In this document: piece by piece, positions 40,966-52,760 of the stretch | Position numbering within the stretch: position 1 is the stretch's first letter | Layout of the letters: every line of letters starts with the position of its first letter | Assembly: GCA_009838765.1 (NCBI GenBank) | Contig: VXQX01000017.1 | Span: 10,050 to 74,049 of the forward strand | Reading direction: 5' to 3' | Length of the DNA: 64,000 nucleotides | From: Gemmatimonadales bacterium | GTDB taxonomy: Bacteria > Gemmatimonadota > Gemmatimonadetes > Palauibacterales > Palauibacteraceae | Position numbers and translations under genes: made by a program | The notes under the pieces: generated by a model | Databases searched by the model: none | The model's input: the letters and a program-made list of their open reading frames with translations, nothing else | Told to the model about the DNA's origin: nothing

Positions 40966-42642
40966 ATGATACGGATGCTCACGGACGTACAGATCGCCGA
41001 GGCCGCGACGCCCCGGCCCATCGGGGAGATCGGGGAGAAGATCGGGCTGGGGCTCGATGAACTCGTGCCCTACGGCCACTTCAAGGCGAAAGTTGGCCCG
41101 GAGTCCATCTTCGCGCGTGAGCCCGGAGCGGGCCGGCTCGTCCTCGTCACCGGCATCACTCCGACGGCGGCGGGCGAGGGCAAGACGACCGTCTCCGTGG
41201 GGCTCGCCGACGGACTGCGCCGCGTGGGAGCGAACTCGGTGCTCTGCATTCGCGAGCCGAGCCTGGGCCCGGTGTTCGGCGTCAAGGGCGGCGCCGCCGG
41301 CGGAGGGTACTCGCAGGTGATCCCGATGGCGGACATCAACCTCCACTTCACGGGGGACCTGCACGCGATCACGTCGGCGCACGCGCTCCTCTCGGCCGCA
41401 CTGGACAACCACCTGCAGCAGGGGAACCGGCTCGGGATCGACCCGCGCCAGATCACCTGGCGGCGCGCCGTCGACATGAACGACCGGGCGCTCAGGAACA
41501 TCGTCGTCGGGCTCGGAGGCCGGATCAACGGAGTGCCGCGCGAGGATGGGTTCATGATCACAGCCGCCTCGGAGGTGATGGCGATCTTCTGCCTCGCCGC
41601 CAGCCTCGAGGACCTGGAGGAGCGGCTGAGCAGCATCATCGTGGGATACGACTACGGCGGGGAGCCCGTGCGGGCGCGCGAACTGAACGTGGCGGGCGCC
41701 ATGACCCTGCTGCTGCGGGAGGCGATCGGACCGAACCTCGTTCAGACGCTGGAGGGCACGCCGGCCTTCGTCCACGGCGGACCCTTCGCGAACATCGCGC
41801 ACGGCTGCAATTCCCTCATGGCGACGCGGGCCGGGCTGGCCTTCGGCGATGTCGTGATCACGGAGGCGGGCTTCGGGTCGGACCTCGGCGCCGAGAAGTT
41901 CTTCGACATCAAGTGCCGGACGGGAGGGCTGAACCCGGAAGCCACCGTGCTCGTGGCCACGATCCGCGCCCTCAAGCTGCACGGCGGGGGCGACCGCACG
42001 GCGCTCTCGGCCCCGGAGCCCGACGCGGTCCGCGGCGGGCTCGCGAATCTGGGCGCGCACGTCGAGAACATCCGCGGCTTCGGGATCGAGCCCGTGGTGG
42101 CGATCAACGTGTTCGCGACGGACTCCGACGAGGAGATCGCCGCGGTGGCCGAGGCGTGCGAGGATCTGGGCGCACCCTGGGCCCGCTCCGATGGCCACGC
42201 GCTGGGTGGCGCCGGCTGCGAGGATCTGGCCCGCGCAGTGCTGGCGGCGCTCGACGAGGGGGCGGCCGCCTTCGCGCCGAAATACGATGCGGAGGCTTCG
42301 ATCCGGGACAAGATCGAGGCGATCGCGCGGAAGGTGTACGGAGCGGACGGCGTGGACTATGCGGCGCGCGCCTCGAAGGACATCCGCCAACTCGAGACGG
42401 CCGGGCTCGGGGATACGCCCGTCTGCATCGCGAAGACGCCGAACAGTCTGAGCGACGACCCGGCGCGCCTGGGGCGGCCGACCGGCTTCCGCATCACGGT
42501 TCAGGACGTGCGTCCCTCGGCGGGGGCGGGCTTCGTCGTGGCCAGGGCGGGGACCGTCATGACGATGCCGGGGCTCCCGCGCGTGCCCGCCGCGGAGGGG
42601 ATCCGGATCGTCGAGGACGGGAGCGTGGTCGGGCTCTTCTGA
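40966..42642 (+). CDS. fhs: Formate-tetrahydrofolate ligase
   Basis: Makes 10-formyl-tetrahydrofolate from formate, THF and ATP for one-carbon metabolism. The 558-residue protein has the P-loop TPTAAGEGKTT, EPSLGPVFGVKGGAAGGGYSQV split across two conserved blocks, NLHFTGDLHAI, and the C-terminal GTVMTMPGLPRVPAA. Length is normal. Two possible starts (40966 or 40975) differ by three residues. pgi follows after 21 bases. Confidence 0.95.
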   Translation: MIRMLTDVQIAEAATPRPIGEIGEKIGLGLDELVPYGHFKAKVGPESIFAREPGAGRLVLVTGITPTAAGEGKTTVSVGLADGLRRVGANSVLCIREPSLGPVFGVKGGAAGGGYSQVIPMADINLHFTGDLHAITSAHALLSAALDNHLQQGNRLGIDPRQITWRRAVDMNDRALRNIVVGLGGRINGVPREDGFMITAASEVMAIFCLAASLEDLEERLSSIIVGYDYGGEPVRARELNVAGAMTLLLREAIGPNLVQTLEGTPAFVHGGPFANIAHGCNSLMATRAGLAFGDVVITEAGFGSDLGAEKFFDIKCRTGGLNPEATVLVATIRALKLHGGGDRTALSAPEPDAVRGGLANLGAHVENIRGFGIEPVVAINVFATDSDEEIAAVAEACEDLGAPWARSDGHALGGAGCEDLARAVLAALDEGAAAFAPKYDAEASIRDKIEAIARKVYGADGVDYAARASKDIRQLETAGLGDTPVCIAKTPNSLSDDPARLGRPTGFRITVQDVRPSAGAGFVVARAGTVMTMPGLPRVPAAEGIRIVEDGSVVGLF

Positions 42643-51101: not shown

Positions 51102-51671
51102 TCAGGGATCCGGCCACAAGGCCGGGTCCCGCTCCATCTCAGGCTCCGGTTCTACACCGAGCGCCTCGACCATGCGCACGTAGTAGTTGAAGAAGCCGAC
51201 GACCTCCGTCGCGGTCAGGATCTGCGCGTCGGTCCAGCCGACCTCCCGCAGCCCGTCGATGTCCGGCCGAGCCGTGGAGGTCGGCTCGCGCGTGATCGCC
51301 ACCGCATAGTCCATCAGCCGGCGCGTCTTCGCGTCGAGCCCCGCCGTCCGATAGTCGATCCGGATCGCGCGGGCCAGGTCATCGTCCCCGGTCGCCTGAC
51401 GGAGATCCTCTCCGTGCGCCTCCGTTCAGTAGAAGCAGTCGAGTTCGCGCGAGGTCACGGTCGCGAGCATCTCCCGCACGTCCCTCCCCAGCGGTCCGGG
51501 CGCCAGCATCAGCGCCTCGTAGAGCCGGATCGAGGCACGCATGACGGGCGGGTTCAGACTCTGGATGCAGATCACGTTGAAGACGCGCCCCGCGCGGCGG
51601 ACGGCCTTCTCGTACTCGCGGGCGACGAGCCCCTCTGCTTCCTCGGGAGCTACCGTGTCGATATGCGGCAT
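51102..51671 (-). CDS. CMD/AhpD-family peroxidase-like selenoprotein (CxxU)
   Basis: A 190-codon gene read through one in-frame TGA at 51426-51428. Upstream residues 1-81 (starting MPHIDTVAPEEAEG) and downstream residues 83-189 (TEAHGEDLRQATGDDD to the end) are in the same frame and together match a full-length carboxymuconolactone decarboxylase/alkylhydroperoxidase-like protein. In that family the TGA position is the second Cys of the CxxC-x3-H redox motif; here the motif is Cys79-Phe-Tyr-Sec82 with the conserved TEAH after it. A hairpin with a GG loop follows at the right distance. AGGAGG precedes the ATG by four bases. Probable role: thiol-dependent peroxide or related reduction. Confidence 0.82.
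51399..51415 (-). promoter_or_regulatory. Bacterial SECIS-like hairpin
   Basis: On the minus strand, ten bases after the TGA codon, ACGGAGAGGATCTCCGT folds into a perfect six-base-pair stem with a five-base loop AGGAT containing GG. The loop guanines lie about 18 bases after the UGA, within the range for bacterial SECIS elements bound by SelB. It lies within the coding sequence, as bacterial SECIS elements do. Confidence 0.7.
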
Positions 51672-51731
51672 TTCGCCTCCTGAAGACGATGGGTCCGGCG
51701 CGGGAATCGGCTCATCGGCGCGACCGGCGCC

Positions 51732-52760
51732 TCAGCGGACGAGGAAGCCGTCCCGCCACGGGTCCTCCGGATCGACGAGGAACTCGTGGCGGCCCGTGAC
51801 CCAGGCCCGGCCGCCGATCTCCGGCACGACGGCCGCGTACCCGCCGACAGACGTCGTGTCCACGACGCGGCCGCTGAACCGGCCGCCGATGATGCTCTCG
51901 ACGATGATCTCCGCATCCCCGGAGTGCTCTCCGCGCGCGTGAAGGATGGCGAGGCGGCCGCTCACGGCGGTCCCGGTCGGACTGCGGTCGAGTTCCCCGT
52001 CCGCGAAGATGCAGACGTGCCGCGAGTGGTGTGCGGCGTCGACCGCCGCGCCCGTGAACACCGTGCCGTAGAGAAACCCGAGATCCGGATCATCCGGATG
52101 CGAGATTTCGCCGCGGGCGGACGAGGACACCGCACGCGTAATCCGGCGCCCCGCGTCGATGAGGTCGGCCGCGCCGCCGGGAGTGAGCGAGAGCCCGAGC
52201 GCGTCCGCATCGACGTAGGCGTAGAAGGCGCCGCCGAAGGCGAGGTCGTATGACACCGCCCCCAACCCCTCGACCTCCAGGGCCCGCCCCAGCGCGGGCG
52301 CGAAGGAAGGCACGTTGAGGAACCGGACCTCCCGCACGCGCTCGCCTTCGAGGATCGCGGTGGCGCGCACGAGCCCGGCGGGCGTGTCGATCGTCACCGA
52401 CCGCTCTCCGCCCGCCCCATCGATCCAGCCGGCTTCGACAGCGATCTTCGCCACGCCGATGATCCCGTGACCGCACATCGTCGAGTAACCTTCGTTGTGC
52501 ATGAACAGGACCGCGAAATCGGAACCGGGGCGCACGGGAGGCATCACGAGGCAACCATACATGTCCGCATGGCCCCGCGGTTCCCACATCAGCGCGCGGC
52601 GGAGTTTGTCATGGTCCGAACGGGCCACACGCCGGCGGGCGAGGACGGTGTCTCCCGCCAACTCCGGGAAGCCCGCCACGATGACCCGCAGCGGTTCTCC
52701 CTCCGTGTGGGCGTCGATCGTCTCGACGCGAAGCCAGTGTTCGGGCGCGGTCCAGGTCAT
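51732..52760 (-). CDS. Trans-3-hydroxy-L-proline dehydratase (proline racemase family)
   Basis: A 342-residue member of the proline racemase superfamily. The first catalytic residue is Cys96 in MCGHG. At the second site, where racemases and 4-hydroxyproline epimerases have Cys (SPCGT), this protein has Thr262 (DRSPTGTAVSGR). A Cys/Thr pair marks trans-3-hydroxy-L-proline dehydratases, which make pyrroline-2-carboxylate. That points to use of collagen-type hydroxyproline, in keeping with an animal-associated or detritus-feeding life. No reductase or further hydroxyproline gene is adjacent. It is 60 bases upstream of the CMD selenoprotein gene and may be cotranscribed with it. Confidence 0.87.
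   Translation of the reverse strand: MTWTAPEHWLRVETIDAHTEGEPLRVIVAGFPELAGDTVLARRRVARSDHDKLRRALMWEPRGHADMYGCLVMPPVRPGSDFAVLFMHNEGYSTMCGHGIIGVAKIAVEAGWIDGAGGERSVTIDTPAGLVRATAILEGERVREVRFLNVPSFAPALGRALEVEGLGAVSYDLAFGGAFYAYVDADALGLSLTPGGAADLIDAGRRITRAVSSSARGEISHPDDPDLGFLYGTVFTGAAVDAAHHSRHVCIFADGELDRSPTGTAVSGRLAILHARGEHSGDAEIIVESIIGGRFSGRVVDTTSVGGYAAVVPEIGGRAWVTGRHEFLVDPEDPWRDGFLVR

Follow-up and report, generated by a model that had tools for sequence, protein, structure and literature searches.

Does the in-frame TGA of an AhpD-like gene in a Gemmatimonadales bacterium end the protein, or is it decoded as selenocysteine (Sec)? The gene lies on the minus strand of the 64,000-nucleotide stretch of DNA analysed here (the window). 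When re-read, its frame runs from ATG through 81 codons ending in Asp-Cys-Phe-Tyr to the TGA, and continues through 107 open codons (TEAHGEDLRQ...) to a second TGA at 51104–51102, which is the true stop, in agreement with the initial annotation. That annotation had proposed that UGA at codon 82 is decoded as Sec. The Sec machinery of the genome, the pattern at codon 82 among relatives, its tracking with selA, and the dN/dS ratios all favor this proposal, which we consider very probable on such comparative evidence (probability of about 0.96).

In a profile search that took the TGA as Cys, the protein scored 125.7 bits against TIGR01926 (cut-off, 81.8; model positions 4–178 of 178) and 42 bits against Pfam CMD (cut-off, 23). 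When the two halves were matched separately, the 5′ half (37.5 bits) covered positions 4–81 and the 3′ half (69.1 bits) positions 85–178 of TIGR01926. As the initial annotation had supposed, the two halves, which match adjacent parts of one model, thus belong to a single TIGR01926/CMD (AhpD-like) protein, one that standard gene calling would truncate or split. The site was also recovered by a six-frame scan of the entire window, blind to its location, for TGA codons with native codon usage on both flanks; the TGA at 51428–51426 was at the top of just two candidates. The other candidate, TGA at 42640–42642, was rejected as an ordinary stop between two intact genes sharing one frame, and is not a Sec site. 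The upstream one of the two genes parted by this TGA (42642 and 42664) resembles formate-tetrahydrofolate ligase by eye. The features of the locus are compiled below.

Coordinates of the features at the AhpD-like locus, in positions of the window
Feature	Position	Strand	Remarks
AhpD-like (TIGR01926, CMD fold) selenoprotein gene, predicted	51102..51671	minus	189 aa, predicted Sec at residue 82
In-frame UGA, second redox residue of C79-F-Y-U82	51426..51428	minus	Putatively read as Sec
SECIS-like hairpin ACGGAGA-GGA-TCTCCGT	51399..51415	minus	7 pairs; GG-containing loop; start 10 nt past the UGA
Shine-Dalgarno sequence AGGAGG	51676..51681	minus	4 nt before the ATG, seen in the sequence
Proline racemase / trans-3-hydroxyproline dehydratase-like gene (PF05544)	51732..52760	minus	60 bp upstream of the AhpD-like gene

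Homologues with Cys or Sec at residue 82 were looked for in a class sample of 295 genomes, 129 of which contain a homologue at E ≤ 1e-20. Codon 82 was read in 79 loci, a number that includes duplicates (eight loci of one search repeat congeners of another), and 71 distinct proteins entered the tree. It is TGA in 68 loci and a Cys codon (TGC/TGT) in the remaining 11; neither another amino acid nor TAA or TAG occurs at this position, which places the TGA, as claimed at the outset, on the second Cys of the CxxC motif. Apart from L095, which has a second TGA, none of the sequences contains an internal stop other than this TGA. The 11 Cys forms cluster in the tree (support, 100/96) and are nested among Sec forms, the midpoint rooting being for drawing only. 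The TGA form also tracks the Sec machinery: selA was found in 96 of 100 TGA-form genomes versus 1 of the 10 whose forms all carry Cys, among the genomes whose matches were listed (Fisher p = 1.5e-9, a value that overstates the number of independent events because the sampled genomes share kinship). Since the four TGA-form genomes in which selA was not found (G257, G172, G206, and G076) are all fragmented MAGs of 82–90% completeness, its absence from them is likely a matter of missing data. The nearest named relatives are Ca. Palauibacter species, accompanied by unnamed Gemmatimonadetes MAGs, and on the basis of these relatives the bacterium is assigned to the genus Ca. Palauibacter; the group of Ca. 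Palauibacter has been described as a new order (PMC10469786). In a Chloroflexota relative (L060; 33% identity), this codon is likewise TGA (CHYU), and hence the Sec form also occurs outside Gemmatimonadota.

The genome (3.6 Mb in 96 contigs, ~95% complete) was subjected to targeted searches for selA, selB, selC, and selD, which the initial annotation had expected outside the window, and all four were found there. selA scored 490.6 bits, and selB (370.5 bits; contig C64) is located ~5 kb from selC, the tRNA-Sec gene (79.7 bits), whose UCA anticodon was confirmed by ARAGORN. selD (369.7 bits) is on the same contig as the AhpD-like gene, ~2 kb to the left of the window. With its own in-frame TGA in a GAGUACK motif, this selD (L101:6923-7849, minus strand; contig C43) appears to encode a selenoprotein as well. 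Use of Sec is therefore very probable in Ca. Palauibacter, a genus of marine sponge- and coral-associated Gemmatimonadota, and widespread in the class, where selA was found in 219 of the 295 sampled genomes.

A perfect 6-bp hairpin with a GG loop had been described as beginning 10 bases past the TGA, at a distance matching bacterial SECIS elements. The starting point and the GG in the loop were reproduced, whereas the stem was found to comprise 7 pairs closed by a GGA loop. Compared with shuffled sequences, the single-sequence fold gave a z-score of −2.5 over 43 nt and −0.4 over 61 nt; because these values are moderate and weak, respectively, evidence from the alignment was used. Across 22 distinct relatives, 94.2% of the hairpin cells are paired, against 33–49% with the partner slid by 1–3 columns, although the former percentage is biased upward, as the 22 were picked for pairing better at the 10-nt position than at an alternative one. 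Changes on both sides occur in 7 cells, at two pairs (A-U to C-G, and G-C to C-G), and the covariation score of the hairpin was reached by none of 500 shuffles. In the loop, G18 is invariant and G19 nearly so. Part of the conservation is owed to the protein (H-G-x-x-L-R), and thus the comparison with Cys homologues matters; these form just 1–4 of the 7 pairs. Synonymous change is 0.03 for codons 83–91 versus 0.16 overall (p = 0.003 in a comparison with codons matched for degeneracy), and the lowest synonymous variability of the gene falls in nine-codon windows starting at codons 82–85, coinciding with the hairpin site. In the published description of bacterial SECIS elements, a stem-loop closely follows the UGA and its small apical loop contains G (PMC1088965); the hairpin of the AhpD-like gene fits this description. 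The covariation among relatives and the weak pairing in Cys homologues bear out the original SECIS placement. An Rfam scan of the window gave no match.

Two readings that dispense with selenium have to be weighed against decoding as Sec. An ordinary AhpD-like gene with Cys could have acquired the TGA through a nonsense mutation or a sequencing error, as TGC and TGA differ by a single base. However, 13 other congeneric genomes retain the TGA, as do same-class families at 35–50% identity. Furthermore, degradation of the half downstream of the TGA, the outcome anticipated for a pseudogene, is not what was found: among 14 congeners compared pairwise, mean dN/dS is 0.193 before the TGA and 0.208 after it, these near-equal values indicating that both halves are under the same constraint. 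The conserved TGA and the purifying selection on the 3′ half refute the pseudogene or sequencing error, to which we assign next to no probability. Passage through the UGA of this gene could also be explained by a genome-wide reassignment of UGA (to Trp, Gly, or Cys) or by suppressor read-through, but UGA serves as an ordinary stop at the AhpD-like gene's own end, in the racemase gene, and in the gene ending at 42642, and no further internal TGA emerged from the codon-usage scan of the window. Reassignment or suppression would moreover leave aside the presence of the Sec machinery and the tracking of the TGA form with selA, and is extremely improbable.

If the UGA is decoded as Sec, the process would follow the bacterial components found here. 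Sec would be made on tRNA-Sec(UCA) by SelA and SelD, and SelB would bind the hairpin 10 nt downstream of the UGA and bring the tRNA to the ribosome, yielding a full-length AhpD-like thiol/selenol oxidoreductase. Glu67, Cys79, Tyr81, residue 82 (Sec/Cys), and His86 are invariant in the 79 sequences and constitute the AhpD signature (E67-x11-C79-x-Y81-U82-x3-H86). They match the five proton-relay positions known as Glu118, Cys130, His132, Cys133, and His137 in Mycobacterium tuberculosis AhpD, and as Glu36, Cys48, Tyr50, Cys51, and His55 in Pseudomonas aeruginosa PA0269 (PMC3141380). The E-x11-C-x-[H/Y]-C/U-x3-H relay is thus common to the three proteins, with Tyr81 as in PA0269 (PMC3141380), and the difference is that Sec stands here for the second Cys. 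Solved homologues are 2pfx, 2oyo, 3c1l, and 6k40 (E 1e-24), of which 2pfx and 2oyo are titled 'uncharacterized peroxidase-related' proteins and 6k40 'AhpD'; the closest structures represent the longer 2oyo/2pfx type. Judging from the AhpD signature, it is most likely that the selenolate of U82 attacks a peroxide (or a similar oxidised substrate) to form a selenenic acid, which C79 would resolve into an Se–S bridge; a cellular dithiol may then re-reduce the bridge. Such peroxidase-type chemistry is less certain than the decoding of the UGA as Sec, since the CMD fold also hosts non-peroxidase enzymes.

The protein might accordingly be a selenoprotein without being a peroxidase, namely a Sec oxidoreductase of the CMD fold with a different substrate, and perhaps tied to the neighboring enzyme of the hydroxyproline/proline racemase family. 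The best NCBIfam match of the latter gene is trans-3-hydroxy-L-proline dehydratase, below the model cut-off. The order of the racemase and AhpD-like genes is kept, at the 60-bp distance, in the 13 nearest congeneric genomes (its own included), and TIGR01926 is named merely 'peroxidase-related', both of which speak for a non-peroxidase function. On the other hand, the full AhpD relay signature is present, and within the flanks examined the pairing was not seen in a homologue of 70% identity (L035) or in more distant relatives, which makes the link to the racemase local. We therefore regard a non-peroxidase function as rather unlikely, and peroxide reduction by U82 with resolution by C79 as the preferred reading. 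From the gene order, the racemase gene is a probable operon partner of the AhpD-like gene, and a functional link between the two proteins is possible.

AhpD-like selenoproteins with a CxxU motif are known from environmental sequences, with 27 sequences (COG2128) from the Sargasso Sea (PMC1088965) and 299 sequences of 'AhpD-like 1' in the GOS data (PMC2398784). Like the protein described here, they belong to an AhpD-like family, have Sec as the second residue of CxxU, and carry a SECIS-like hairpin past the UGA; the sole difference is in lineage (Ca. Palauibacter, and the wider Gemmatimonadota). 'AhpD-like protein, TIGR01926, CxxU' is an entry in the table of a review from 2026 (PMC13188914), and the protein here passes the same model. 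Because AhpD-like CxxU selenoproteins in TIGR01926 are already published, the gene adds a further example of a described family, a conclusion that is well supported; in the open literature searched, we found no published description of a Ca. Palauibacter or Gemmatimonadota case. Membership in NF041238 (AhpD-related CFYUT (seleno)protein) was considered for the local CFYUT motif, which the protein shares together with a related domain, and was rejected, as the score of 42.5 bits falls short of the cut-off (175); the NF041238 model has 357 positions and a different N-terminal part.

With Sec and Cys forms that track selA, the class offers a clean natural set for studies of Sec/Cys exchange and SECIS turnover. 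As to the latter, a sister group of homologues (L036–L073) has a different conserved stem, GACCTC/GAGGTC, starting 18 nt past the TGA. The hairpin may have moved within the AhpD-like family, between the 10-nt GG-loop group, to which the present gene belongs, and the 18-nt sister group, with one SelB serving both, a proposal that we put forward tentatively and at slightly less than even odds. Two genomes each contain one paralogue of either hairpin kind (G035, with L064 and L069; G042, with L051 and L098), and a single SelB in these genomes would have to recognize hairpins of two kinds, which differ in their distance from the UGA.
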